Below, piece by piece: positions 7,475-54,419 of a stretch of 64,000 nucleotides of DNA. A model generated the notes under the pieces. The model worked only from the letters and a program-made list of their open reading frames with translations, was not told the origin of the DNA and searched no databases. Numbering within the stretch: position 1 is the first letter of the stretch; the number at the start of each line of letters is the position of its first letter. Location of the stretch: the NCBI RefSeq assembly GCF_042453785.1, contig NC_091663.1, forward strand, positions 37,159,001-37,223,000, written 5' to 3'. Origin of the DNA: Malus domestica (lineage: Eukaryota; Streptophyta; Magnoliopsida; Rosales; Rosaceae). The translations under genes and the position numbers were made by a program.

Positions 7475-8057
7475 CTGTGTAGCCGAAACCCTGTTTTTTT
7501 TTTTCCGCTGTGCTTGGTTGACTGTTTTTCCTGCAAATCTTCCGCAGAAAACAGTGTTGCCATGTGTGTAATCTTGCTGCGTGTGCAGCAGTGTGGGTGG
7601 TGCTGTGTTTGGTGGACTATTTTCTGCACAGTTTGCCGTGTGTGTGTGGTATTGTTGTGTGTGCAGCAGTGTGGATGCAGCTGTTTTTTGGTTGACTGGT
7701 TCCTGCACTGTTTGTTGCAAAAATTAGTCAAACTGTGTACCCTGTGATTGCAGCACAATATTCTGTTACTGCCGTGTGTCTTTATTGCTTTGTGGAGTGC
7801 AATTGCAGGGCCTTGTAGAATATGATTTGCTTAGGCAATTGTTGTTGTGCTTAAGAAATTGAAGGAATATTATATTGAAAAGTAGGCCCTGTGTAGGTGC
7901 AGTGTGTTAGTGTCGTATATCATATTATTTTCGTGGGAGTACAAGCCAGATTCTGGCCATGTATTAGGTTTCTGCTGCTTGTTTTTTCTCGCAGCGTGGT
8001 TCTATAATTGGTGTGGTGTTGTGATTGCCGTGTATTACTATCTCGTGAGTTATTACA
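7475..8057 (+). repeat. Copia leader with diverged internal repeats in place of gag
   Basis: GTGTGCAGCAGTGTGG occurs twice (near 7579 and 7659). TTGACTG or TGGACTA motifs followed by a CTGCA motif recur about every 100 bp between 7500 and 7720, so the leader has expanded by imperfect tandem duplication. No gag motif is visible in any frame. Confidence 0.55.
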
Positions 8058-11000
8058 ATGGTGAATACGGGTTGGATTCTAGACTCGGGTGCAACCGATC
8101 ATATGACTTTTGATAAGAATTTATTTACTAGTATGACAACTAGTTCACGGAAGTGTATTGCAACTGCTATCGGAACAACAACATCGGTTTTAGGGGCCGG
8201 CACTGTGAACCTCATGCCAACCCTTTCCCTTCATCACTGCCTGCTTGTTCCTTCGTTGTCTCATAATTTGTTATCTATTCCTCAAGTTACTAAGCAATTA
8301 GATTGTGTTGTACTTATGTATCCACTGTTTTGTTTGCTTCAGGATATTCAGACCAAGGAGATAATTGGGCGTAGCATTAAGAGATAGGGGTTATATTATG
8401 TGGATGATGTCGTTCCTGGTAGAGCTAATGCAGTTCGAGCATCCCGTACCAATAATTTACATGAAGTTTGGTTATTGCATCATCGGTTAGGACATGCTTC
8501 GTTTGGGTATTTGAGGCGTATGTTGCCTAGTTTATTTCATGAAATAAAAGAATCAAACTTACATTGTGAGGTATGTATTCTTGCGAAGAGTCATCGCGTT
8601 TCGTTTCCTCCTAGTATGAATAAAAGATTGTTTCCTTTTGAACTTGTGCACTCTGATGTTTGGGGTCCCTCTCCTGTTAGTACTTTGTCTGGAATTAAAT
8701 GGTTTGTTACCTTCGTTGATGATTGCACTCGTATGACTTGGATTTATGTGATGAAGAATAAAAGTGATGTGGGTATGGTGTTTCGATCATTCTCTCAAAT
8801 GGTTGCAACACAATATTCCTCTGTTATTAAGATTCTCCGCTCTGATAATAGAGGTGAGTATATTCGTTCCGAGTTGTCCGGCTTTCTTCGGGATCAAGGA
8901 ATTCTTCATGAGACTACTTGCCCTTATACCCCACAACAAAATGGGATTGATGAAAGAAAGAACCGTCATATCCTGGAAACTGCTCGTGCCTTGCTCATTG
9001 GTGCATTTGTACCTAAACGGTTCTGGCCTGAAGCTATCACCTATGCCGTGTATGTGATTAACCGTATGCCATCCCGGGTTATGGATTTTCATACACCTCT
9101 CCAAGTATTGACAGAATTTGTTCCAGTAGTATCAACTAATACTCTTTCTCCTCGTGTGTTTGGGTGTGTAGCCTATGTTTATATTCACAAGATTCATCGT
9201 AGTAAGCTCGATCCATGTGCTTACCGGTGTGTTTTTCTGGGCTTTGCTCCTCAACAGAAAGGGTATAAGTGCTACCACCCTGAAACTCGTCATATGTATG
9301 TAACTATGGATGTTACCTTTTCTGAATTTGAGGTCTTTTATGCTTCGACTCCATCACCTTCCGATCACCAGGGGGAGAATATGAGTGGTGATCTTGGGTG
9401 GTTGGAAATATGTAGCTCAGGGGGAGTATTTATTGACAAAAACAGCTGTGAAAGCTCTCAGCAAGAAACTGCCGAGAATGGAGATAGTGACTCTCGGCAA
9501 GACACTGCCGAGAATGTGAGTATCATTCAGCCAGGTAGCACCGAACCAGCTGAGTCTTCTCAACAACATATTGCCGAGTGTGATGCAGAGTGTCAGCAGG
9601 GAGTTGCCGAAACAGTTTCACCGCTCCAGCAACCATTAGCTACTGAACCTGCAACCCTCTCTCTCTCAAGCTCAATAGTGCCACCCAATATGTCTTCTCT
9701 GAATATTTCTAAGGTAAGTACTATTGATGCTCATGTAATTAATCCAGATAATGTTATGAGTACATATAAGTTGCCGCCAAGGCAAAATCGTGGTGTTCCT
9801 CCTGACAGGTTTTCTCCTGAAGGAAAAGTGAAGTATCCAATAGCTAATTATGTGTCATGCTCAAACCTTGCACCAGAACGTCAAGCCTGGGTAAACAATG
9901 TGGAAGCAATCCAAGCACCAACCCGAGTTGAGAAGACCTTGAAGGATCCTAAATGGGCTGCTGCGATGGATGAGGAAATGATGGCACTACATAAGAATGA
10001 TATATGGGAGGTAACGGAGCTACCTAAAGGAAAGAAACCAGTTGGGTGTAGATGGGTCTTTACGATCAAATACAAGGCAGACGGATCGGTAGACATGTAT
10101 AAAGCAAGGTTAGTAGCAAAAGGCTATACTCAAACTTATGGTGTTGATTATCAGGAGACATTTTCTCCAGTAGCGAAGATGAATACAGTACGAGTTCTGA
10201 TTTCTTTAGCTGCAAATTTGAATTGGCCACTAAAACAGTTTGATGTGAAAAATGCTTTTCTTCATGGGCACTTGGAAGAAGAGGTATATATGGATTTTCC
10301 TCCGGGGTACGATTCCGGAGGGAAAACCGGAGTATGTAGGTTGCGAAAGTCACTCTATGGACTTAAGCAACCGCCTCGTGCGTGGTTTGGTAGATTTACC
10401 CAAGTTATGAGACGAATTGGGTATTATCAAAGTCACTCGGATCATACATTATTTGTGAAACGGGGAAGTGGTAAAGTGACAGCCTTAATTATTTATATGG
10501 ATGACATGATAATAACAGGTGATGATTCGGAAGAGATGATGAAGCTAGAACAAAACCTTGCCGCCGAGTTTAAGATGAAGAATTTGAGAGATTTGAAATA
10601 TTTTCTTGGCGTGGAAGTTGCTCGGTCATCTAGAGGTATTTTCTTGTCTCAACGTAAATATGTTCTTGATTTGTTAAAGGAAACAGGTATGCTGGGGTGT
10701 AAACCTGTGGATACGCCTATTGTGGAGAAACATCACTTAGGGATTTATCCGGATCAAGAACCAGTGGATAAAGGCAGATATCAGAGACTGGTAGGAAGAC
10801 TAATTTATTTAGCTCATACCCGTCCAGATATAGCCTATGCAGTAAGTGTGGTGAGTCAGTTTATGCACTCGCCAAGTGTGGATCATATGGCTGCTGTTAT
10901 GCGTATCTTGGCGTATTTAAAGTCCACCCCAGGGAAAGGAATCTTGTATAGAAATTCTGGTCATCTAAAAATTGAGGGGTTCACTGATGCTGATTGGGCC

Positions 11001-11450
11001 GGTGATGTGACTGATAGGCGTTCTACTTCTGGATATTTTACGTTCGTTGGTGGAAATTTGGTTACTTGGAGAAGTAAGAAACAGAATGTGGTGTCTAGGT
11101 CTTCTGCAGAGGCTGAATTCAGAGGTATGGCACATGGAGTGTGTGAAGTTCTTTGGTTACGTAAGTTGCTTTGGGGTCTTGGTTTCAAACCAAGGGAGGC
11201 TATAAAGTTGTATTGTGACAATAAGTCGGCATGAGAAATTGCAGAGAACCCGGTAAAACATGACAGAACGAAGCATGTAGAGGTTGATCGACATTTCATT
11301 AAGGAAAAGCTCGAGAAGAAGATTGTGTCAGTACCATTTGTGAACTCAGAAGAACAGCTTGCCGATATTCTCACTCATGCCGTGTGTAGAAGAGTTTTTG
11401 GTGACTCACTTGTCAAGTTGGGCATGTGTGACATCTATGCTCCAACTTGA
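8058..11450 (+). pseudogene. Copia pol polyprotein (protease-integrase-RT-RNase H) with two nonsense codons
   Basis: The reading frame stays constant from the protease (WILDSGATDHM, near 8075) to the end (CDIYAPT, stop at 11448-11450). It is broken only by TAG at 8385-8387 and TGA at 11232-11234. After the first stop come the integrase zinc finger (HHRLGHAS...CEVCILAK), the integrase core (HSDVWGP, SDNRGEY, PQQNGIDERKNR), the RT (FDVKNAFLHG, YMDD at 10494-10505) and the RNase H (TDADWAGD, SSAEAEFRG). Both stops fit single C-to-T or G-to-A changes. All catalytic motifs are otherwise intact, so decay has barely begun. Confidence 0.9.
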
Positions 11451-14899: not shown

Positions 14900-14971
14900 C
14901 ACTCATTCTCCTTGTTTTCTAATTAAATAACCCCCTTCTATTAATTTAACAAAAAAAAAATAATAATAATA

Positions 14972-15565
14972 ATGAAGCCAATTGCAGCAGCATTTTTCTT
15001 CCTCTCAACATTGTGTGCCGGAAGATTTGTCGTGGTCGCCTGTAATGGTCAAGGTCAAGGTGAAAGTGAAGGAAGCAACACCGCTGCCGCCGCGGGGGAG
15101 GTGAATATGAAGCTTCTTGAACAAGCGTGCCAGCATTCACCCAGGAAGGACTTATGCATCGAATCCCTAGAGAAGGACTCGAACAGCAAGGGCGCTGACC
15201 TCATAGGCCTCGCCTACATTGCCGTCCGGCTGGCCGCGGCAATGGCCGCCGACGTGGACGAGCACATGCGGTCGTTGCTCATGCACAACGCCACCACCTT
15301 GGACCCCATGATTCAGCAGGGGTTGGCGGACTGCGTTGAGCACTACTCCGATGCCAACGACCAGCTTGACGACTGCACCGCCGCCATCTCGGCGAGTAAC
15401 TTCAAGGACGTTGAAGTGTGGGTCAACGTGGCGATTTCTGACGCCGACTTCTGCGACAAATCTCTTAAGGGACAGGAATCCGTGATGGTAGCGAAGAACA
15501 AAGCGTTCCGCCTGTTGTGCAATAATATTTTGTCCATAATCAAGGCCTTGCCTGCTGAAAAGTGA
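14972..15565 (+). CDS. Plant invertase/pectin methylesterase inhibitor family protein
   Basis: This is a single-exon frame of 197 residues, typical of the family. Residues 1-24 form a hydrophobic signal peptide (AAAFFFLSTLC), so the product should be secreted or vacuolar. The mature part carries the family cysteines Cys53 and Cys62 in ACQHSPRKDLC (first disulfide hairpin) and Cys121, Cys135, Cys161 and Cys183 in the four-helix bundle. NATT (106-109) is a possible N-glycosylation site. Family members bind either acid invertase or pectin methylesterase one to one. The GLA..AV.LA pattern and the ADCVEHYSDAND segment resemble the Pla a 1/invertase-inhibitor branch, but sequence alone does not settle the target. 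Its neighbourhood to two PME genes makes a PME target attractive, though that is inference. Base composition is GC-richer than its surroundings. Confidence 0.88.
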   Translation: MKPIAAAFFFLSTLCAGRFVVVACNGQGQGESEGSNTAAAAGEVNMKLLEQACQHSPRKDLCIESLEKDSNSKGADLIGLAYIAVRLAAAMAADVDEHMRSLLMHNATTLDPMIQQGLADCVEHYSDANDQLDDCTAAISASNFKDVEVWVNVAISDADFCDKSLKGQESVMVAKNKAFRLLCNNILSIIKALPAEK

Positions 15566-18779: not shown

Positions 18780-20836
18780 TCAAATTAATCCGCCGGTGTA
18801 AGGCACTCCGGTTTGAGGCAACCAATCATCTCCCAGCAAGAAATTAGTCACCGTGAAATTAGCGGCGTCGGTAGAATTAATCACATGATAACCGGGCCAC
18901 GTAACTCTGTTCGTAGTGTTCGATCCGGGTCCAGTGTTGTTGTACTCAGCGTAATACAATGTGCTTAGCGCAAAATCTCCGTCCCAAGCGCGCCAACCAA
19001 CAGATTCCACCAAGCTATCAATGTAAGACTGCATGTAAACTGTCCTAGAATACTCCTTCCATGGCCTGCCCAAATAAGTCTTTGTACTGCTGTTGCTAGA
19101 GGCTAAATCATCGGCGGCACGAATGGTGCAATTATGAATCGAAGTGCCTGTGTTTTGGTTCGGATCTGTTCTACCCTGAGCCGTAATGGCGTTGAACTGA
19201 CCGCTCATCGGCAGGCGGGGATAAATGTTGCAGTTTTGGAAAACCACTGCAGCATTTCCAAATATGAAGTCTACGGTGCCGTATATGTCACATTCTCTGT
19301 AGAATTGCCGAAGAGAATGTGTGTATAGTGTGTCTTGGTACGCTTCAAAGCTGCAACTATAAAAGGTTGACAGATCCGCGCCGCTTCGGACTGCAACCGC
19401 TTGGTGCTTGATTGCTCCGGCGGTGTTGCGGAACGTTATGTTCACCGCTACAAATCCAGGTGCAACCACAGCTGCAATATTTATCATATTCGAGAACTTG
19501 TAAGATACTAATTCAACATTATATAATGACTACTGATATTATAGAAAATGCACATAAATCAATTTGACCGTTCTCGTCAAATATTAAGTGGCTTTTGGTT
19601 TAGCTCTTCTTGACAATTAAAGCACTTTTAAATGTTCAATGACATCGTTTTCTGTCATGCTCATTCAAAGCAACTCTCTTGAATGTTTAAGAAAAGTCTT
19701 AATGATTTTTAAATAAAAGTATTAAGGTGTTACGTAACCAATATCAAATAGCTAATTGTGTTGTTAAACCGTCAATTATAATAGAATGAATTTTAATTTC
19801 TTGTTTAAGACTACTTACCAAATGTTGCAGAGTTGAAAGTTGTCCATCCATCAACAACGCTCCGGTTACCGGTGATAATCGTCTGGTTAATGCCGTCTCC
19901 GACCATCATTAAGTACCTCTTATTTTTAGCAACCGAGACGTACTCTTCATAAACACCGGCTGTGACATAGATCAAGAAGTACCCATCAGTTGGTGCAGAG
20001 TTGTTTGGAGCCGCCGCAATGGCGTCATTGATGGTGGAGAAGTTTCCGGTTCCGTCCCGACTCACCGTCACGATCTCACTCACTAACACTTCATCGTCCG
20101 CCGTCTCCGTCTGCAGCATCTTCCGCTTGCTCACGCTCTCGTAAACGGCACGCGTTTTGCTCGACATCTTCAGCGGCAAGCGTCCGTTCTTGAAGCCCCG
20201 CTGCGTCCTAGTCGGGCGCCACGCGGCTTGTTTCTTCTTCTTGGGAACCCACCCTTTGGTAAAAAGTGCTAGTGAAACGCTGTAGAATTTAGTGTCGTTT
20301 TTGAGCGGGGCGGAGAGGCCGTTTTTCAGACTCCACGCCGACGCGGTGGACTGAATGCCATCGAAACATGTTTGCTGGTTGGTGAGAATGGCGCTGAGGA
20401 GGGTTTGGACGTCGTTGGCTTTGAGTGTGGAAAGGGTTTTGCTAGTTTTATTGACGGTTTCAAAACTGTTGAGCAAAAAGTCCATGTTGAGGCCGGCAAG
20501 CAGCAGGCAGTCCTCGAGAGCTCGGACGGCGGTAAGTGACAAAGTAGAACGTCTTTGGAGATACTTGTCGATAAGTTTTAAGAATTCTCGGGATTGGGAT
20601 AAGGACTTTCGGACGGAGAAACGGCCGTAGAAGTAGACATTTTCGGGTTTGTGGTTGTGAGGGAGGACAGATTTGCAAAAGGAAGGGTCGGGGGTGGATT
20701 TGCAAATGGTTCCGGCAGAGACAGTGGTTGAAGAGTTATCCGCGGCTAAAGATAGAGTGGCAAAGAGTGGAACGAGAAGGATGAGAAATGAAGCTAAAAG
20801 ATTGAGGGATGAGATTAGCTTAGAATTATAAGCCAT
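18780..20836 (-). CDS. Type-I pectin methylesterase (PMEI pro-region plus PME domain), gene 1
   Basis: Exon 1 is 20836-19819 and exon 2 is 19471-18780, joined in phase 1 by a GT-AG intron of 347 bp, giving 569 residues. Residues 1-31 are a signal peptide. Residues about 40-195 form the PMEI-like pro-domain (Cys45, Cys54, Cys110, Cys157). RKML at 238-241 is the basic processing site used in the Golgi to release the enzyme. The PME domain follows, with catalytic Asp386 (YQDTLY) and Asp407 (GTVDFIFGNA), the GQFNAITAQGR segment and YLGRPWKEYSRTVYMQS with the conserved Arg. The product should be secreted to the wall to remove methyl esters from homogalacturonan. A long basic linker (about 199-237) is absent from the neighbour copy at 24501-26408. 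Gene 1 and gene 2 share intron position and phase and are clearly tandem duplicates. Confidence 0.95.
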
Positions 20837-21539
20837 TTGGATTGGAATTTGAATTAGTATTGTATACTATTTAGTGGAGTTGATGATTGGTGATAGGCTT
20901 GATTCATATATATATATATACACACACACATAGGAGGCGAGAGAGGGAGCTGGATTATTTTTCTGGCTTGATAATATGGTGGTTGGAGTGAACAATTTTT
21001 TTGTGGGTATTCGTATTTGTGAGGTCAACTGAATTGTAAGACTTTGTGTACAAATACGCGTTAGATCTCAGACTTGATGTTATTTGTACATGCAAACGTC
21101 GACTAATAGTAGTATGTAGTCATCCTAGTCCCATTCATCCAATAGAATAATGTGGTCTCGTTGTTTTAGCGAGTGATTTTTTTGGAAACATAGGTGCCAG
21201 TCTGTAAGGTATTTTGCTTCTGTTACCTTTTTTGCAGATTTATACCAATTTCTCTTAGTTCGTATGGTAATCGTATAAGAGTTCTATATTACCTTTTGTA
21301 CGTACTCTCTTGTATTTGTTTGGTTCTCACAATGCATTCATTCTATATTGTTGTAAAATAAAATAAAATAAAATAAAAGATATATGATTTCTTGAGTGGG
21401 TTGTCCAATAATAGCTCCTAAATTATCTTTATATTTCACAGTATTTTGTTATTTACTTATAAATTAGATGCATTGGGGCATTTGTCAACGGTGGGGAAGG
21501 TGCCCAAGGGAAGGGGATTGGTGACATCGAGTAGGATAG
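20837..21539. other. Promoter-side flank of PME gene 1
   Basis: A TA/CA-rich run (about 20908-20930) contains a TATATATATA stretch that reads as a TATA box on the minus strand, 70-90 bp upstream of the ATG at 20836. Farther out the DNA is AT-rich, including an (AAATA)n-like run near 21357, with no gene. Confidence 0.45.
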
Positions 21540-24500: not shown

Positions 24501-26408
24501 TTAGTATAAGCCACCAGAAAAAGGCACTCCAGTTTGAGGCAGCCAAGCATCTCCCAGCAAGAAATTGGATACTGTAAAATTTGAAGCATCACTAGCATCA
24601 ATCACATGATAGCCCGCCCATGCAACTCGGCTTTTAGTGTCCGAACCGGGTCCACTGCTATCGTACTCCGCATAATACAAAGTGCTTAGGGCAAAATCTC
24701 CATCCCATTCATGCCAACCGTCTTGATCAATCAAACCATCCATGAAGGATTGCATGTAAATTGTCCTAGAATACTCTTTCCATGGCCTTCCGAGATAAGT
24801 CTTTGTACCACCGTCGCTCAAAGCCAGATCATCGGCAGCTCGTATGGTACAATTGTGAATCAAAGTGCCCGTGTTTTGGTTCGGGTCAGTTCGACCTTGA
24901 GCCGTGACCGCATTGAATTGGCCGCTCATCGGCAGGCGGGGATAAATGTTGCAGTTTTGGAAGACAACTGCAGCATTACCAAATATGAAGTCTACGGTGC
25001 CATAGATGTCACATTCTCTGTAGAATTGCCTCATAGAATGTGTGTATAAGGTGTCTTGGTACCCTTCAATGCTGCACCTATAGAATGTGGATAGATCAGC
25101 CCCGTTTCGAACCGCGACTGCTTGGTGCTTCCAGGGCCCGGCGGTGTTACGAAACGTCATGTTGACTGCCACAAACCCTTGTCCAACTACAGCTGCAACA
25201 TGAATCAATTGGCGTACAAGTTATAACAAAACTCGCTCGGAAATATATATGCAAAAGTAAAATGGGGGTTACAAAGTTTTCATAAAAAATTCAAAAATTA
25301 AACCAGTGCACTAAACATACAGCAAGTTGTATATAGATCACTATAGTTCATATTTTCTATTTTTTCGTTAAGTGTTTGCACCGAGATATTTATTTATTAA
25401 ATTCGTTCAATTAAATTTACTTGTACAAACTTAAATTAATTTGAAACAGATATATTAACTTAATAATTAACTAAAACTTGCTGATTATTTCTTACCAAAT
25501 GTTGCTGATTTGAAAGTTGTCCAGTTTCCATCTGCAACATTTCGGTCGCCAGTGAGGACAGTCTGATTGATGCCATCGCCAACCATCATGAGGTACTTCT
25601 TTTTCTTGTCAATGGTCACATACTCTTCATAAACTCCTGCCTTGATGTAAATCAAGAAGTAACCTTTAGAGGCTTCAGACTTGTTTGGAGCGGCTGCAAC
25701 GGCATCGTTTATGGTGGTGAAGTTCCCACTTCCGTCCTGACTCACAGTCACTATTTCCTTGACCAACACGTCATCAACGTTGATCTGATTATCAAGCAGT
25801 TTTCTCCCCTTCTTCTTCTTGTTCTTAGGCACCCATGCCTTGTTGAACAAGGCCAGAGAAACACTGTACAGTTTGGTGTCGTTAGAGAGTGGAACCGAAA
25901 GACCACTTTTTACACTCCAAGATGAAGCTGTGGCTTGTATGCCATCCAAACATGTTTGCTGGTTTGTTAAGATGGCGCTGAGCATGGTCTGGATGTCGTT
26001 GGTTTTCGAGTCAGAAAGTGTTGGATAATTGGTGTTGTTTAGGGTTTCCAGGGAGCTTGCAAGAAAATCTACATTGAGCCCTGCAAGAAACTGGCAATCC
26101 TGGAGAGCGAGGACAGCGTTTTGTGAGAGAGTGGCAGAGTGGCTTCGGAGATACTTGTCCACCAAGTTAAGGAATTTGAGACTCTGTGATAACGACTTTT
26201 GCGCAGCATAGCGGCCAAAGTCGTAGGCATTTGAGGTCTGGTTGGGGAGGACGGAGTTGCAGTATGTAGGGTTTGGGGTGAATTTGCAAATGGTTTGCTT
26301 GGAGACTGGATTTGCATCTGCAGCTAAAGATGGAGATGCAAAACACGTCGAAAGAAGAAGGATGAGAACCGAAATTTTGGACATGGAGAATAGTTGCAAA
26401 TTAGCCAT
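24501..26408 (-). CDS. Type-I pectin methylesterase (PMEI pro-region plus PME domain), gene 2
   Basis: Exon 1 is 26408-25496 and exon 2 is 25192-24501, with a 303-bp GT-AG intron in phase 1, giving 534 residues. Residues 1-30 form a signal peptide. The PMEI-like pro-domain (about 38-190) has Cys41, Cys50, Cys105 and Cys153. RKLL at 202-205 is the expected processing site. The catalytic domain shows Asp351 in YQDTLY, Asp372 in GTVDFIFGNA and the YLGRPWKEYSRTIYMQS block. Compared with gene 1 the basic linker before the processing site is about 30 residues shorter (KNKKKKGRKLL), while the catalytic exon has the same length (692 nt). Both genes face the same way, about 3.7 kb apart, as expected from tandem duplication. 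Predicted function is secreted pectin de-esterification. Confidence 0.95.
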
Positions 26409-26470
26409 TGGCTCGAATTTGGGGCTATGACAGACAAGTTAAGTGCTATATATTAGGCATTCTGGCGTTG

Positions 26471-35901: not shown

Positions 35902-38262
<2,361 letters not shown>

Positions 38263-44661: not shown

Positions 44662-46706
44662 ATGGGATTGAGGTCACCAAATATGGGGGGCGTTGCAAGA
44701 AGAACATCAGCCATGGCTGTGTTTCTTCTCGGCTTCGCTTTGCTCTCTTGCGTGGCCCAAGCTGCATCCCGTGGACATCTTTTCAGGGCTGGTGCCCGTC
44801 GTAGCGAGACTACCAAGAGGAAAGTGTTTGATGTCACAGCCTTCGGTGCTAAGACCGAAGACCAGATGAATAGAGGAAGCAAGAAGCCTAATGTTGTTGG
44901 CAAGTTGAGTACTGGGGAACTGCCCGGTGGAGGTATACCTGGCCTCCCTGGTGGTACTGAGGAGGAGAGTTATGATGATGGCGAGAAAATTGATGATCCT
45001 AATGGATTGGTGAGATTACAGAAATCGATAACACAATTTCATTTCAATGCATAACTCGTTCAATAATTTGAATTCACGGTTTGATAACATAAGATTATGT
45101 TGTATGCAGGCATTCATCCGGACATGGGTAGCCGCATGCAGAGGAAACTACAAGGGTCCAACTAAGGTTGTGATCCCCAAAGGAACATTCTTGACAGGAC
45201 CTGTGGTGTTCCAAGGGCCATGCAACAGCTCAACTGAGCCCATCGTCGTTGAAGTTCAAGGATATGTCAAAGCCAGCACCGATCTCAGTCAATACTCCTC
45301 GCCCGAGTGGTTTTCATTTGAGTTGGTTGACGGCTTGATCGTCACGGGTGACGGCACTTTTGACGGGCAAGGTACATGGACAACCAGTGGCAGCAAGGAC
45401 TCCAACAAAGCTGCTCAAGCCCCATCCGTAAGCTCTCTAGCGTAACATCTCCAATTATTCTCCATTTTCGAGTTAAATTTTAAGTGACATACCATTTATT
45501 TGATTCAATTGTTGCATGAATGCAGTCATTTAAATTCAACAAAGTGAACAACAGCCTGATCGAAAGGATCACATCCTTAAATAGCAAACTCTTCCACACA
45601 CACATGTTCGGCTGCAACAACATGACAATGAGGAATGTCCACCTCACTGCTCCTGGAGATAGCCCTAACACAGATGGCGTGTACATCAGCGCTTCGAACC
45701 ACATCAAGGTGCTTAACAGTGTTATCGCAACCGGGGGTGACTGCGTTTCCATCGGGCAAGGCGCTTACGATGTCACCGTTAAAAACATCACGTGTGGTCC
45801 AGGGTATGGCATCAGTATCGGGAGCCTCGGAAAGGACCCTGACGAACTGAGCGTCAGTGAGATTCACGTCAGCAATTGCACATTGAGAAACACCACCTAT
45901 GGTGCCAGAATCAAGACTTCGGCTGGCAAAAGTGCAGGAGAAGTGACCGGAATCGTCTTCGAAGACATTATCATGGACCAAGTTCAAAACCCTATTATTA
46001 TAGATCAGTACTACGGTAACACGAAGGTGGTAAAAAAAATCATCGATGGAAATAAAAAGATGGCAGTCCCCGGAAATAAAAAGAGCGTAGGAGCTGGATT
46101 AAAAAAGAAGGTAGGAGCTGGATTAAAAAAGAAGGTAGGAGCTGGATCAAAAAAGAAGGTTGGAGTAGGAAAACAGATGGTACGTATGCATGCACTCGTA
46201 AATAATTTAATTTATTAATTCTAATTAATTCATTATAGATTATTAATTCATTTTGAAATTTGTTTAATTTATTCAGGAACTGCAAGGTGGAAAGAAAAAG
46301 AGCGTAAGTAAGAACGTAAGTATTCAAAGTCATGCAGCTCATGCATATAATTAGTGATTCGATTAATTAATTTTGCACCATTTATAAGTTAATTAATTGT
46401 TATCTATTGTAAGTAATTTATAATTTGGGTACTGCATGCATGCAGGATGGAGCTGGGGTACCTTCTAGGCCAGTATCAAAGTGGAAGATCAGTGACGTTC
46501 ACTTCAGAAACATTAGGGGCACCTCAGCCGGAAAGGTTGCCGTTTCGTTAGCTTGCAGCTCTGTAAACCCATGCGAGGGTGTTAAGTTCACCGACATTAA
46601 CCTTTCCTACAAGGGCACCAGTAAGAAAAATACGGCGCTTAAATCTGAATGTTTCAACGCCCAGATTACACCAAAGGGCGTACAAAACCCACCACTCTGC
46701 CGTTAA
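44662..46706 (+). CDS. GH28 polygalacturonase-like protein, probable pseudoenzyme
   Basis: Exons are 44662-45009, 45110-45427, 45526-46179, 46277-46303 (or -46315) and 46446-46706. All are phase 0, giving 535 or 539 residues against roughly 400 for ordinary exo-polygalacturonases. A hydrophobic segment around residues 18-35 (AVFLLGFALLSCVAQA) is the signal peptide; the ATG at 44713 is an alternative start. GH28 motifs seen are NTDG (270-273), RIK (350-352) and the parallel beta-helix pattern. However the GDDC motif is GGDC (Gly293 replaces the first Asp) and the GHG motif is GYG (Tyr316 replaces His). Both are catalytic or near-catalytic in the family, so loss of hydrolase activity is expected. 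Two extra segments are a Gly/acidic insertion (about 75-115) and a Lys/Gly block (about 400-440) with three VGAG(L/S)KKK repeats. A wall-binding or regulatory role is possible. The frame is fully open, so it is not an obvious pseudogene. Confidence 0.88.
46085..46170 (+). repeat. 24-bp coding tandem repeat (VGAGLKKK) in the GH28-like gene
   Basis: GTAGGAGCTGGATTAAAAAAGAAG-type units occur three times plus a partial one (GTTGGAGTAGGA). They encode a basic, flexible block placed where family members have a short Cys-containing loop after DQYY. Confidence 0.9.
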
Positions 46707-47188: not shown

Positions 47189-47547
47189 AAAGATATTGAA
47201 AGATGAAAGTCAACCAAAGCAATTAAGGCTAGTAGTGCAAAGTGTAGTGCAGTTGTCTCCTCTAGGGTAGCTGGTTGCATTAGTCAAGGAGTTTATTCTT
47301 CATGTCTTGTCATGTCTCCTTATTGACAAGGAATTTAAGGAAGACAAGACTTTTGTGTCTTCAACCTTGCCTTTATATTGTAACCCGATCTCTTGTTCTT
47401 CACACAGAAAAATATATACAAAACCTTCAAATTACAACAAAATCAACATGGTATCAGAGCATGAACCATAATCGACCTACTTCTGCATTTTTTGTTGTTT
47501 GTGTTGCTTTCTTATCCTGCTAGGGTTTCCAATACATTCTTGATAAA

Positions 47548-48640
47548 ATGGCAGAAGAAAATCCTTCAGTTTTAGATGGAGAAAGCTCATCAGTTCTTTC
47601 ACCTCCAAACTTATCTGAGGTTGATGTTAATCCCAACCAACGCTTCAGTTTAGTACTACTAAATGAATTCAACTATTTACCTTGGTCAAGAGCGATCACT
47701 CTTGCTCTCAGTGGGCGTTCAAAACTTGGCTATATCAATGACAGCATCAAAGCTCATGATGTCTATTCTCCTAACTATGAAGCTTGGTTGTACAAAGAAC
47801 AGTGGGTTAAGTCATGGCTTCTCAACTCTATGGAAAGAAAAATTGCTGAAATCTTCAACTTCTCAGAGTCCTCTCAGCTTGGCACCTCTCATCTTGGCAG
47901 TCTGTCAAGGAAATGTATAGTAATCAAAATAATGTTACTCAAGTGTTCCAGCTAAAAAAGGATTTTGCTTGTCTTCAACAAGACTTAGGTAGCATGAAGA
48001 ACATGTGGAATGAACTAGAGGTTTATCGTCTACACACCATTGATGCTGCTGTGTTGCTGAAAATAACTGAGGAAGACAAATCTTCCAGCTCTTGTCGAGT
48101 CTCAATTCTAAATATGAAAACCTTCGAAGTCATATTTTCATGAACTCAGAGTTACCCTTATTTGCAGTTGTTTATGCAACAATCCATCTAGAGGAAGTTA
48201 GCAGGAAAGTCATGAATATGGAAACTAAGGTCAATATCACTGAGGCTAGGGCATATGTGTCCAATCAAAGACAACATGAAGAGAAAGTGTATAGAGGCAA
48301 ACGACCAGACTTGAAGTGCCTTCATTGCAATAATTTTGGCCATGTGATTGAAAGGTGTTGGATACTGCATCCAGAACTGAAGCCTAAGTTCATGAAGGAG
48401 AATACAAGAAGTTCACAGAGAAAGTTCCAAAGTTCCAACTACAAGGCTAATCGCACTACCTTCACACCTACTGGGGGTCTAGCTAATTTCATGGTAAATC
48501 CAACTAATCTCATTAATGAGTTTACTACATTTCTTAAAAAAGGCAAGAAGATGTTGAAAGCAAGGGAGAAACCAATCCTAGGGCTGAAAGTTCAACTACA
48601 GTACTTGGGAAGTTTGCTAGATTCCTAGCTGAAACTGAGT
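47548..48640 (+). pseudogene. Copia gag (broken)
   Basis: An N-terminal frame from the ATG at 47548 has the plant Copia gag pattern (NYLPWSRAITLALSGRSKLG). It is followed, after a frameshift near 47900, by VFQLKKDFACLQQDLGSM and TEEDK blocks. After another shift near 48090 comes a CCHC zinc knuckle CLHCNNFGHVIERCW (about 48318-48360). At least two frameshifts prevent translation as one protein. Confidence 0.8.
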
Positions 48641-48689
48641 ATCCCTCACAACATAATGTACCAGGTATTTTAAATGCTTTCTTAACTGC

Positions 48690-49953
48690 CCCGAATATCA
48701 GTTATGTGCATGATCTTTGGGTTTTAGATTCAGGTACCACAGATCATATGACAAACAAAGTTACAAAAAATCACCAAACCTTCCAAAGTCTTTGTTGCAA
48801 ATGGTAAGGGTGCATCTGTTGAACGGAAAGGGAAAATCAAACTAATCTCTGAAAAAATAAAGTCAATGGCCTTGTATGTCCCTTCCTTTCAATTTCAGTT
48901 ATTTTCAGTTGGGAAACTCACAAATTCCTCAAACCACCTCACAACGTCATTTTTCAGGATTTAATCACCCAGAAGATGATTGGTGAAGGTTTTTACTTGA
49001 ATGGGCTATATTAGCTGTCAAAGGACTTTCAAATTCCTAAGGGACTACAAGTAGAGTCAAATATTGTTCAAGATCACCACCTATGGCACCAACAGTTGGC
49101 TCATCCTTCTTAGCTTGTTTGTCCAAAATTTTCCCTAGTCTAAGGACAAACATGTCTAAAGTGTGACATTTTCCATTTGTCCAAATGTACTAGGTTACCT
49201 TTTAACTCTTCCACAACTAGGACTAGTAAGTCTTTTTGAATTAGTTCACTTTAATGTTTGGGGACCCATCCTTGAATCTTTTGATGGCTATAGGTACCTT
49301 GTAACCTTTGTTGATGACTTTACTAGAGTCACTTGATTTTATCTTTTGAAATTTAAAAGTGAAGTTATGGAAATGTTCAAAAACTTTCACAATCTTGTCA
49401 AAACTCAATTCTCATCTCAAATTCAAACCTTAAGATTTGATAGTGACACTGGATATATGTCCTATGTTATGACACAATACTTAAGTAATCATGGAATCAT
49501 TTATCAAACCAGTTGTGTTGGCACTCCTCAATAAAATGAGGTGGTCGAGAGGAAAAATAGAGATTTACTTGAGAAAATAAGGGCATTAATGTTTCAAATG
49601 AATGTTCCTAAAAGGTTTTGGTCACAAGGTGTTCTCATTGCTACATACCTTATTAATCGATTGCCAAGCAAAATGTTGAAGCTTAAATCTCCTTTGGTAG
49701 TACTAAAAAGAAAGCCACTTGACTTGTCACATTTGAGAGTGTTTGGAGCCATTTGTTTTGCTCATGTTCAGTCTATCCACCGTGACAAACTTAATCCAAG
49801 AGCTGAAAAATGCATGTTCATTGGATACTTTTCTACCACCAAAGGGTACAAGTGTTATAACCCTAAGTTTAAGAGGGTTATCATGACAAGGGATGTACAC
49901 TTTGATGAAAGAACTCCATACTACCAAAAGGTTAGAGATGATTCCAGTCAGGG
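48690..49953 (+). pseudogene. Copia pol, 5' part: protease and integrase (broken)
   Basis: LWVLDSGTTDHMT (about 48716) marks the protease. A degraded GAG-pre-integrase block follows (HHLWHQQLAHP). The integrase core is visible as FVDDFTRVT, RFDSDTGYMS, a VGTPQ stop and VVERKNRDLLEKIRALMFQM (49541 on), then the C-terminal KGYKCYNPKFKR. Several stops and shifts are present. The frame ends abruptly at the nested insertion, in the codon after SSQ. Confidence 0.8.
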
Positions 49954-52732
49954 TGTAACGACCCGCCCCCAAATATTACGAAATTTATAGTTTTAAAATG
50001 TGAAATTACAAAAATGCCCTTCGAGGCCAATACGTTGACTTTTGTTAATCGCCTTGTTGTGTCACGTAAGATTCGTTTTCTTGGCATATCATAGTAGTAC
50101 TCGTCGCTATGAATGCGTGGATGCAAGTGGAACCAAATTTGGAGTTACGATGAGCGTTTTACGGAACTATAAAGTTTAGGGGCATTTTAGTAATTTTACC
50201 ATTTAAGATATTTCCTTGTCATGGACAATTGGGGAGCAGACATGTGGCAGCTTCTTCCCCAATCTTTTGGAACCATTTCCCTCTCTTTTATCTCCCGGAT
50301 ACATCTATCTCCCTCTCAAGCTCTTTATCTCTCTCCCTATTTTCCCTCATCTCTGCAATCACAGAGAACCACCACCCCCACCACCGTGGCTCACTCTCCG
50401 ATGACCTTCCCACCAAAAACTCAAACCGGCTGGAACACCTTCTTCTCTCTCTCTTTCTAATGCTCAGTGGCACCATCACTATTCCTGAAATTACTCCGGC
50501 GAGTTCTCCATCATCTCGGCCAAGGTAAGCCTTGGGAATACTCTAAATGTTATGCATTTGTCTTTGTGGTTCGATTTTGAGCACGCTTGTGTGTTTTGAA
50601 CTAGTTTAGGACAGAAATGAACTCGGGAAGAAATTCCCAGTTTTCGACAGGAGAACCTGGTACTTGTCAGTCTTTTTCTGACCATTTTTCGACCACAACT
50701 TGTCCTCATGATGGTAAAGTCTTATTCTCCTTCTCCTTAGCTTCATTTTGGCATTAGGATTGTTGAAAATGGCTGAAGATCGAGCTCTATCGGAACTTGG
50801 GAATTTTCCGGCCGAAATACAGCCTTCTCTCTCGTTGGTTTCGGCGACTCGCAAACCAATTGGGTCAAGCCCAACTTGCAAACCCAAACGAGCCCAACCC
50901 AGTTACTAAACCAGACCTAAAACTCAAACTGAAACCTTAGGCCTCTATGATATAAGCCTTAATCCAAGCCCAAATCTACTTTACCTAAGCCCAATTCGTG
51001 CACCAAGAGCCCAGCCCAATCTCATTGGCCTTAACCCAAATCCAACCAATACCCGGCCCAAACCGTTGGGCCATGCAACCCAACTAACTGAGCCGAACCA
51101 TTATTTTGCCCAAATCTATTAACCCATTTGCTAGGCCCAACCCTTGACCCATGTGACCCAAATCTTTAGGGCCCAACCCGTTAACCATAGCCCATTAATC
51201 CAATGACCCAGGCCCAAAACCCTTGGCCATTAACCCTAACCGGATCTGACCTGTTGACTTTCGTTGGTCGTTGACCGGGAATGTTGACTTTTGAGTTGAC
51301 TTTTTTAGGTTTAAACCGGGACCCTTCATAGGTTCGACGTCCTGATTCCAAATCTGCCGTCCATTTTCCCAAATTTTATCGTTTAAGTATAATATTACTA
51401 AATGGTCCCTAATTGTGGTTAAGTGCATCAGTTGGGAATGATACCATTCTCGCTAGTTCGAGCGGTTTACGGGCGATGGAATATTGTGAATGGACCCCTT
51501 CTAACTTACATATTTTTATAAAATATTAGCCTAGCATGCATTACATATTTCATGATTTGAGTACGTTTTATATTATGCTTTATGAATTTCTATATTTACT
51601 GTTTACAAGATATTTATGTTTTATCGAACTTACTTTTTACGAAAGGTTATGAATTATTAGATTTTCCTATATGAAACTCTATGGATTATGAATATGACTT
51701 ATATTACAGTTTTCAAATATGAGTTATAAATTATGGGATTTTCGTATATGAAATTCTATGGATTCACGAATATGATTTATTTTACGGATTTTATGAATAT
51801 GTGCTATCATGGATTGATGAGATAAGGCTTTGAGCTTTTGAGCTCTAGATTTATGATATGAGTTTTTGAGATATGTTTTCAGTACTATCTAGTGGGTTAT
51901 CATACAACACATCCACGCGACACGGGTTATGACGTCTGTGGCCATAGGACATAGTTGATGAGGAGTAAGATAATATATTATGACATACCCCTAGCTTCAC
52001 TGCCGAAAGCAGTGTCGGACAACTTCACTAGCCACGACTAGTGTCGGTGTGCAATGCATATATTTTCTTCTCCGGCGTAACCCAGAGTCGTACAGCTTCA
52101 CCTTCAGGTGATGAGGCCTACCATGTTTCTTCATTGGCGTAACCTAGTATCGTACAGCTTTACCTTCGGGCGACTATGATACCCTTAAAAAGAGTACAAT
52201 ATTGAGGAGATTTATGGAGTTGCCTTCAGGCAACGATAGCATCATTACTAAGCATGGTTTTTACGCATACATGTTTTACGAACGATTTCATGGCATGCTA
52301 GAGTTTTTAGAAAACTTATTATGTAGTACTATATATATTTTTTCAAAACAGGGGGTTACTATGTTCATAAATAAAATGGTTTTTGTATTATTAGTATTAT
52401 TTTAAACTTTGGTCTACTCACCTTTTCTGTTTTTGCGCCCCCTCAGGAGTTAGAGTCGAGGCACACAATCCCAGCATCAAGGCACGTCCACATAGGTATA
52501 TTCGAGTTCTCAATGTATGAATCTTCCCTTCGTTCATACCTTTTTATTATAATTCTTTCATATTATTCTTAATTAGTTGTATGCTCTGAACACGTTTATG
52601 CATTAGCATTTTCATTCTAATTACATATTTTATTCGTAGGCATGTTTAAAATGGCTTTGTCACCCTTAGGTGCTGGCCATCACATGTCTACACTGATATT
52701 TAGGGATATCAGGGTCGGGGCGTGTCATAGGG
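49949..52732. mobile_element. Nested insertion, probably a solo LTR of a large Gypsy-type element
   Basis: The inserted segment 49954-52727 (2,774 bp) begins TGTAACGACCCGCCCC and ends CGGGGCGTGTCA. It is flanked by a 5-bp duplication with one mismatch (CAGGG at 49949-49953, TAGGG at 52728-52732). Removing it restores the Copia reading sense across the junction (SSQ followed by GELFQDLLPLPNP). There is no internal long direct repeat, no primer-binding site and no gag/pol, so a solo LTR fits better than a full element. Large LTRs of this kind occur in Tat/Athila-like Gypsy groups. TTCACCTTCAGGTGA- and TACCTTCGGGCGA-type short repeats lie near 52090-52230. Family assignment is inference. Confidence 0.6.
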
Positions 52733-54419
52733 AGAGCTATTTCAAGATTTACTTCCCTTACCAAATCCAACTATAGTTGAAGATGACTCAAATAATATTG
52801 GTGTTCCACAAGATGAAACCGACAATATGTCCAATCCTAGTCTTGAGGAATCAGAAGATATCACTCATTCAAGTGAAGAGATCATCATCAGCGAGCCTAC
52901 TAGTTTAGCCCCAGCATACAGGTATCGTACTCATGAGCGTCATCCTCCAAAAATACTGCAAGAATATGTTACTTACACTGCAAGGCATCCAATCGCCAAC
53001 TCCATTACTTATCACAGAATGTCACCTTCACATTCTGCGTTCCTCAGCACAATTTCCAATCTTTTTGAACTCCAAAACTTCCAGGAAGCCAATCTTCAAG
53101 ATGTGTGGAGAAAGGCAATGAAGGAAGAGCTGCAAGCCCTTGATGAAAACCAAACTTAGAGCATTGTTGAATTGCTAAAGGGAAAATGGGCTATCAGTAG
53201 TAGATGGATTTATAAAACCAAATGCCATTCAGATGGCTCCATTGAAAGATATAGGGCAAGGTTGGTTGCTCATCGCTTCACTCAAACCTTTGGAGTGGAT
53301 TACAAAGAAACCTTTGCACTGGTTGCAAAGATGAACACAATTAGAGTTTTATTATCCATCGCAGTCAATTCTGGGTGGTCCCTGTACCAAATGGATGTGA
53401 AGAATGCTTTTTGTATAGTGAACTAAAGGAAGAAGTCTACATGAAGTTACCTCTAGGTCACCCTCAAGCCTGTCATCCTAATTTGGTATGTGAACTTCAT
53501 AAAGCAATATATGGATTGAAACAATCCCCTGATGCATGGTATGCTAAGCTCAGTTATGTGCTTGAAGCTGTTCGATTCAAGAAGGGTAATGATGACTCTT
53601 CTCTATTTGTTCATAATGGATCATTTGGAAACTTGTTCTTATATATGTTGATGATCTCATCATCACTGGGGATATATGGATAAGAATGCAAGTCTCAAAC
53701 GTTCATTTCGACAAAAGTTTACCATCAAAGACCTAGGAGTGTTAAAATATTTTCTAGGTATCGAGGTAGCCACTTCCCAAAAGGGATTGTTTCTCAACCA
53801 ATGCAAATATGTGCTTGATTTGCTGCAAGAGGCTGAAATGAGTTATTCTAAAACCAGTTGTACTCATTTGGACATCAAGCTAAAACTAGACATAACGGGT
53901 GAACCTCTCAGTAACATCACTAACTATAAAAGGCTTATAGGTAAGCTCATCTATCTAACCATCACAAGACTTGACATCACCTAAGCATAGTCAGCCAGTT
54001 CAGTTCATGCACACACCTACTTTGGCACATTTGAATGTGGTTAAAATGATCCTACGTTACCTTAAATGGTCCATTGGGCGTGGTATTTTCATGAGCAAAA
54101 ATGGTCACACGCATATTATGGGATACACTGATGCTAATTGGGCTGGTAGTGTTATTGATCGTCGATTTACCACCTATTATTATACCTTCGTTGGAGGCAA
54201 TCTCGTCACTTGGAAAAGCAAAAACAAAATGTCATTGCTTGCTCTAGCGCTGAAGCAGAATATAGAGCTATGACACCCACTGCATGTAAGCTCATTTGGT
54301 TAAAAGGTTTGCTTTCAAACTTAAGGTTTCCCATTCATCAACCCATGTCTTTATTTTGTGACAATCAAGCTGCCATGCATGTCGCCTCTAATCTTATATT
54401 CCATGAGAAGACTAAGTAG
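52733..54419 (+). pseudogene. Copia pol, 3' part: reverse transcriptase and RNase H (broken)
   Basis: The block VWRKAMKEELQALDEN, a TAG at 53157-53159, then WIYKTKCHSDGSIERYRARL and FGVDYKETFALVAKMNTIRV form the RT fingers. MDVKNAF is followed by a frameshift (53400). The YVDD region is disrupted (LYMLMISSSLGIYG, about 53640-53680). RNase H shows GYTDANWAGSV (about 54121) and CSSAEAEYRAMT after another shift (54240). It ends at FHEKTK, stop at 54417-54419. Confidence 0.85.

Follow-up and report, generated by a model that had tools for sequence, protein, structure and literature searches.

An open-frame GH28 gene of Malus domestica with two altered catalytic residues, and a homoeologous sister in which both are kept

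The stretch of DNA analysed here (the window; 64,000 nucleotides, C3:37159001-37223000, in a genome searched over 651 Mb and 19 contigs) contains a GH28 polygalacturonase-like gene in which the first Asp of the catalytic Asp pair is replaced by Gly and the His of the GHG motif by Tyr, and in which the reading frame is open throughout. Our reading is that this gene, referred to below as the window copy, is a disabled GH28 gene that has persisted under altered or weakened constraint and acts non-catalytically, if it acts at all. We assign this reading a probability of about 0.5. The gene and its parts, as derived from the spliced reading frame, are as follows.

44662-46706, plus strand: GH28 polygalacturonase-like gene, five exons
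44662..45009, plus strand: exon 1, with signal peptide, N-terminal stretch and Gly-rich acidic insert
44854 onward (from residue 65), plus strand: Gly-rich acidic insert of exon 1, also present in the sister gene L035
45110..45427, plus strand: exon 2, N-terminal coils of the beta-helix
45526..46179, plus strand: exon 3, catalytic coils (residues 223-385) and the start of a Lys-rich arm
46277..46303, plus strand: exon 4, a 27-nt mini-exon with a donor position conserved in the sister
46446..46706, plus strand: exon 5, last coils, C-terminal Cys residues and stop

All four introns are GT-AG and in phase 0, and inspection of the gene revealed no stop, frameshift or broken splice site. The spliced frame has 539 residues, or 535 with the shorter form of the mini-exon, so that the claim of an earlier note on this DNA that frame and splice sites are intact is borne out. 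GC content at third codon positions is 51%, compared with 19-33% in the introns. A single Pfam family is matched, PF00295 (GH28), with E = 1.4e-78 and 264.7 bits against a cut-off of 22.9. About residues 1-35 were judged by eye to be a signal peptide, and the mature protein of the 539-residue model is strongly basic (pI 9.5). The window copy is predicted to encode a whole beta-helix protein that carries a signal peptide. The mini-exon has two GTAAGT donors 12 nt apart, which give 27 or 39 nt (46277-46315), both in frame. Conservation in the sister favours the 27-nt form, whereas a simple weight matrix favours the non-conserved 39-nt donor; the position weights of this donor score are general background knowledge.

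Exon 3 alone (218 aa, with an 11-row alignment) was modelled with AlphaFold2. The mean pLDDT was 74.0 and the pTM 0.72; when the model is cut into blocks of ten residues, 13 of the leading 16 lay between 85 and 97 and the other three between 64 and 76, and residues 177-218 of the model, which belong to the Lys-rich arm, fell below 50. In a Foldseek search the best PDB matches were the Arabidopsis polygalacturonases ADPG2 and PGLR (probability 1.00, TMq 0.65-0.67). Exon 3 is thus predicted by the model to fold as a right-handed parallel GH28 beta-helix. ADPG2 (7b8b) and PGLR (7b7a, 8ikx) are the closest solved structures, with 44% and 40% identity, respectively, to exon 3. They share the beta-helix, NTDG and RIK with the window copy but differ from it in having GDDC, GHG and a YC loop and in lacking the arm. 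The motifs, together with three further positions that are changed in the window copy only, are located as follows.

45667..45678, plus strand: motif I, NTDG, residues 270-273, Asp272 intact
45733..45744, plus strand: motif II, GGDC, residues 292-295, first Asp replaced by Gly293 (GGT at 45736)
45802..45810, plus strand: motif III, GYG, residues 315-317, His replaced by Tyr316 (TAT at 45805)
45907..45915, plus strand: motif IV, RIK, residues 350-352, intact
45682..45684, plus strand: His275 to Tyr; His in 8/11 paralogues and in the sister
45898..45900, plus strand: Asn347 to Tyr; Asn in 11/11 paralogues and in the sister
45919..45921, plus strand: Trp354 to Ser; Trp in 8/11 paralogues and in the sister

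Motifs II and III lie within the segment 45721-45850, to which the earlier note had drawn attention, and motifs I and IV fall just outside it. That note had described GGDC and GYG between an intact NTDG and RIK, and this is confirmed by an alignment with 21 comparators, namely 3 PDB sequences and 18 prokaryotic loci (2 of 10 loci from one set and 16 of 128 plasmid records). Eight columns of the alignment are invariant in 21/21 comparators, and the window copy departs from them at exactly two, 293 and 316. At the first of these, which is the first Asp of the Asp pair, the comparators have Asp in 21/21 cases and the window copy reads Gly293-Asp294; at the second they have His in 21/21 cases and the window copy has Tyr316. 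Asp272, which is Asp in all 21, is retained, as are Arg350 (19/21), Lys352 (21/21), Asp294 and Tyr385. When columns conserved at 85% or more are considered, of which there are 26, departures are found at six, 293, 316, 243, 299, 327 and 358, the last four of which are not common to both plant structures. Among the 24 columns that are at least 80% conserved and common to both plant structures, 21 are kept, and the departures are D293G, H316Y and the mild I296V.

A survey within the same genome gave a similar picture. It covered 42 loci, representing 38 distinct places, of which 5 were unreadable; the remaining 33 include the sister and exclude the window copy, and they are a minority of the family, which yields 148 exon-level matches in this genome. 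Position 293 is Asp in 32/33 places; the exception, which has Glu there, is a copy whose frame is interrupted by a stop. Position 316 is His in 32/33, the exception being L065, which reads GGFNFV, perhaps across an exon edge. Both residues are kept in the sister and in 11/11 outgroup paralogues. The claim of the earlier note that the rest of the beta-helix is intact was overstated: Asn347, Trp354 and His275 are also changed in the window copy, and the Lys-rich arm replaces YC. The three changes adjoin motifs IV and I in sequence, and elsewhere less conserved sites have changed too; position 347 is Thr in loci L059 and L060 of the same genome.

Two other loci present a picture of GH28 decay in this genome, in contrast to the window copy. 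In the tandem copy L041 (C9:8818001-8823000), GDDC and GHG are kept although there is an in-frame stop and motif I reads NTKG, and L033 (C13:20651438-20655187) has an in-frame stop and GEDC. In the plasmid of Candidatus Stammera capleta, a beetle symbiont, the aligned GH28 read of locus L013 contains one stop under the standard bacterial code. No GH28 relatives were found in the viral collection that was scanned; a phage collection gave 9 records (best E = 1e-14), which were not used.

By their place in the motifs, residues 293 and 316 would be equivalent to Asp201 and His223 of Aspergillus niger PGII. Asp180, Asp201 and Asp202 are reported to be required for activity in that enzyme, and a His223 mutant to be nearly inactive (PMC8952511). 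Because the equivalent Asp and His are needed in PGII, the window copy should not usefully hydrolyse polygalacturonan, and we consider it very probable that the protein is catalytically dead.

A DNA search of the genome with exon 3 returned only the window and one further copy, with 88% identity:

C11:40276263-40278695: homoeologous sister GH28 gene (L035), identified by the exon 3 DNA search and the collinear block in which it lies

The C11 sister has a full open frame of 544 residues, with the motifs GDDC, GHG, TNGARIKTW and DGLHI. The block is collinear with the window, with matches to its pectinesterase (PME) and GH9 genes and to the intervening segments. The dS of the pair is about 0.17; in 10 of 11 control GH28 pairs dS lies between 0.10 and 0.22, as expected for one shared duplication, and the remaining control, L036/L037, with a dS of 0.47, is probably older than the others. 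The sister has the same exon plan as the window copy, including the 27-nt mini-exon, and the same N-terminal insert and Lys-rich arm, and the two proteins are 80% identical over 527 aligned codons. It differs from the window copy in having kept GDDC, GHG, NG.RIKTW and GLH, and in its shorter protein branch and its omega of 0.36. Because the sister keeps GDDC, GHG and NG.RIKTW, the losses arose on the window copy after the duplication. A tandem GH28 array within the window was also considered and was rejected, since tblastn across the 64 kb gave only chance matches (E of 0.57 or worse). The surroundings of the gene in the window comprise the following.

14945-15562, plus strand: gene for a pectinesterase inhibitor (PMEI; Pfam)
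18786-20866, minus strand: pectinesterase gene with a PMEI pro-region (Pfam)
24507-26438, minus strand: pectinesterase gene with a PMEI pro-region (Pfam)
37891-38259, plus strand: GH9 exon (Pfam)
8049-11231: Copia-type retroelement coding remnant, from translations judged by eye
47524-53680: Copia-type retroelement coding remnant, likewise judged by eye, its start lying within 1 kb of the downstream end of the GH28 gene

Upstream of the GH28 gene, and no more than 30 kb from it, the PMEI, the two PME genes and the GH9 exon make up a loose series of cell-wall genes; one PME and the GH9 region have collinear matches on C11.

Both copies carry the arm.

46015..46179, plus strand: Lys-rich arm, which follows immediately on the invariant Tyr385, at the point where YC is found in other plant members
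46045..46164, plus strand: five repeat units of 24 nt (8 residues)
46286-46309, plus strand: sixth repeat unit, beyond intron 3, reaching the mini-exon

The usual YC loop would carry a disulphide, and YC stands in place of the arm in the plant structures and in the same-genome paralogues. The arm has about 74 residues, 20 of which are Lys, with units such as AGLKKKVG, and its net charge is +18 in the window copy and +21 in the sister. This charge is kept between the copies while the sequence drifts: in the repeat units pN is about equal to pS, and the inserts of the pair have an omega of 0.72, which is not different from 1. The acidic Gly-rich insert of exon 1 is likewise common to both copies, with net charges of -6 and -11. 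Because the sister has the same arm, the arm predates the catalytic loss and is not itself the mark of a pseudoenzyme; it deserves attention in both copies. Tyr291 of PGII belongs to turn T1-11 and is located at the catalytic subsites (PMC8952511), and if Tyr385 is its counterpart, the arm would hang from the rim of the cleft.

Arm units 3 and 4 contain an in-phase donor-like sequence, AAG/GTAGGA, and unit 5 a weaker one, AAG/GTTGGA; the presence of one unit beyond intron 3 looks as if the exon end itself had multiplied. Alternative splicing that skips much of the arm is possible, either from a donor near 46030 or from these sites inside the repeat. In the weight matrix the donor at 46180 outscores the one near 46030, and 2 of the 3 repeat-borne sites score above 46180.

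We now consider whether the window copy has been maintained. The five coding indels that separate the two copies are all multiples of three, compared with 2 of 26 in noncoding DNA (introns and flanks; Fisher p = 1.2e-4), although one of the five is in frame by nature, because it is a whole 24-nt repeat unit, and none is assignable to either copy. The pair diverges by 10.8% in exons (170 sites), 17.2% in introns and 20.2% in flanks. A frame free of constraint would be broken with 95% probability after about 17 substitutions, or after 73 if stops alone count. This calculation assumes 0.15 indels for each substitution and a frameshift in 80% of the indels (the values measured in noncoding DNA are 0.149 and 92%), and the stricter bound is optimistic because indels accumulate more easily in A+T-rich noncoding DNA than in exons. 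We consider it likely that selection acted on the frame of the window copy during most of the period after the duplication.

For the pair, omega was estimated at 0.65 over the whole gene (0.70 by an automated route) and at 0.58 over the core alone, and it is below 1 by likelihood ratios (LR) of 6.1 for the whole gene, 5.9 for the core and 8.5 for the exon 3 core. For exon 3 the value is 0.40, inside the control range, and for the core outside exon 3 it is 0.84, which is not different from 1 (LR 0.29). The 11 control pairs range from 0.154 to 0.426, so that the window pair is the highest of 12; the controls cover GH28-like exons only, and the window pair includes the fast inserts, the value of 0.58 being that of the core only. 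Altogether 13 pairs were run, the window's included, and L069/L070, with only 28 codons, gave no estimate. The dN/dS evidence is divided: for the whole gene and the core the pair lies below 1, yet above all 11 control pairs.

In a maximum-likelihood tree the protein branch of the window copy is 0.129 and that of the C11 sister 0.053, a ratio of 2.4. The window branch was the longer in 196 of 200 bootstraps (95% range of the ratio 1.03-9.3), which is what relaxed selection predicts. Two simpler comparisons argue against an acceleration of the window copy. First, parsimony assigns 16 replacements to each of the two copies, with 4 and 2 more that are doubtful and 20 that are ambiguous. Second, in 117 columns conserved among the outgroups, the copy-specific departures number 5 in the window copy and 3 in the sister (p = 0.73). 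We give the tree more weight than these counts, because it allows for noisy distant outgroups. The outgroups were 11 paralogues in the residue comparison and the trees, 4 of which were used in the branch models. Both analyses excluded L041 and L048, which are broken or match poorly, as well as the eight loci L027-L034, of which four overlap with loci already included.

Under a model of equal neutral time, the branch omega is 0.67 for the window copy, 0.36 for the sister and 0.18 for the background. A value of 1 is rejected for the sister (LR 8.85) and not for the window copy (LR 2.1), and the two copies can be given the same omega without a significant loss of fit (LR 1.75). This model replaced one with free branch lengths, in which the window copy had an omega of 20.8, which we take to be an artefact of saturated outgroups, and neither copy differed significantly from 1 (LR 1.0 for the window copy and 3.1 for the sister). 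Constraint on the window copy thus looks weakened or changed. The suggestion in the earlier note that the gene is maintained and not decaying is supported as regards the frame, which is open, with in-frame indels, and appears to have been kept for much of its history after the duplication; it does not extend to the branch omega of 0.67, which cannot be told from 1.

Because the window branch omega is indistinguishable from 1 and from that of the sister, these estimates do not separate a pseudoenzyme under low constraint from a recently released duplicate. The latter possibility is that the window copy is a redundant duplicate, recently functionless and drifting toward a pseudogene while the C11 sister does the work, and that the open frame merely reflects the little time that has elapsed. 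The high pair omega, the faster protein branch and a window branch omega compatible with 1 are all as it would predict, as are the loss of additional conserved residues in the window copy and the retention of the motifs by the sister. It is less easily reconciled with the lack of any stop or frameshift and with five of five coding indels in multiples of three. By our arithmetic, a loss confined to the last ~13% of the branch should leave omega at about 0.365, a value with a marginally poorer fit (LR 4.02), although the branch ratio falls below 1.35 in 13% of the 200 bootstraps. We place recent drift a little short of an even chance, and regard it and a maintained non-catalytic role as near-equal rivals.

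Another explanation is that the protein is an active hydrolase of altered specificity, in which some other residue substitutes for those that were lost. Asp272, Asp294 and RIK do remain; rhamnogalacturonases are described as having no His223, and the authors of that study doubt that His223 is itself catalytic (PMC8952511). The lost Asp, however, is one of the three required carboxylates in the same account, the xylogalacturonan hydrolase 4c2l keeps both Asp and His, and Asn347 and Trp354 have changed as well. An altered activity is therefore very improbable. An error of sequencing or assembly at the two codons, each of which is a single base away from the family codon, is rejected here with little hesitation: exons differ from the sister by ~11%, in step with the introns, Asn347, Trp354 and His275 are changed too, and the exon 3 search found only the window and C11.

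Work on leaf beetles bears on a further alternative, the inhibitor decoy suggested in the earlier note, in which a dead protein would soak up polygalacturonase inhibitors. Leaf beetle GH28 pseudoenzymes (GH28-3 of Phaedon cochleariae and others) are reported to matter for digestion although they are inactive (PMC6549527). Like the window copy they have substitutions at catalytic or substrate-binding residues, and they are described as being under strong purifying selection (PMC6549527, PMC8213348). They differ in being insect gut proteins for which expression, inactivity and the effect of a knock-down were measured, and the parts of these papers covered here mention no arm. In the one that was tested, pectin binding was lost, and the protein was bound by PGIP-like proteins only (PMC8213348). 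The fold retained in the exon 3 model, this binding, and the decoy roles mentioned for other pseudoenzymes (PMC6549527) are compatible with a decoy. However, classical PGIPs did not bind the beetle protein (PMC8213348), and plant polygalacturonases are described in a review as lacking key residues of PGIP recognition sites (PMC12620375). We therefore hold a decoy to be highly unlikely. Because the tested beetle protein binds neither pectin nor classical PGIPs (PMC8213348), neither of the functions suggested in the earlier note, pectin binding or a decoy, is to be assumed.

We return to the reading of a disabled gene that persists under altered or weakened constraint. The history that we propose would begin with a homoeologous pair of unusual GH28 genes, both with a Gly-rich acidic N-terminal insert and a Lys-rich arm after Tyr385. 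After the duplication the window copy alone would have lost catalysis, through the change of the first Asp of the pair to Gly and of the GHG His to Tyr, with further changes adjoining the motifs at Asn347, Trp354 and His275. Its protein would have persisted under altered or weakened constraint, and the polycationic arm, together with the RIK patch that was kept, might hold acidic pectin in the wall. The protein would then occupy homogalacturonan, either binding it or competing there with active polygalacturonases. The anatomy of the protein, with a signal peptide judged by eye, RIK, a basic pI and the polycationic arm, points in this direction. Whether the window copy has a non-catalytic function at present we rate at even odds. 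A fuller version, in which the lineage evolved an arm-bearing polygalacturonase and one copy then remained an enzyme while the other became a polycationic pectin-holder, either in competition with its active sister or helping to position it, is speculative and rather unlikely.

Absence of the motifs has been recorded in other plants. Pear PbrPG8 is described as lacking motifs II and III (PMC6935220), as is peach PpPG44, a subclass B protein of 382 aa (PMC5133928). These resemble the window copy in that the same two motifs are scored absent; PpPG44 is an unlikely orthologue because of its subclass and its length. In sweetpotato only 59 of 103 polygalacturonases have all four motifs (PMC10239142), and in Brassica oleracea motif II was found in all (PMC7461206). 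Motif loss as such is therefore common in plants, since the same motif classes are scored absent in these relatives. In the portions of these surveys covered here the motif-lacking members were not followed up as pseudoenzymes, and a search of titles and the beginnings of abstracts, which covered few subscription papers, found no study with a plant GH28 pseudoenzyme as its main subject.

As a whole, these results place the window copy in the GH28 family by its sequence and outside the enzymes of the family by its catalytic residues, GH28 pseudoenzymes as such being already known in beetles. Because a single genome holds a copy with all motifs and a matched disabled copy, both with the same inserts, the role of a dead polygalacturonase in the plant cell wall becomes directly testable.
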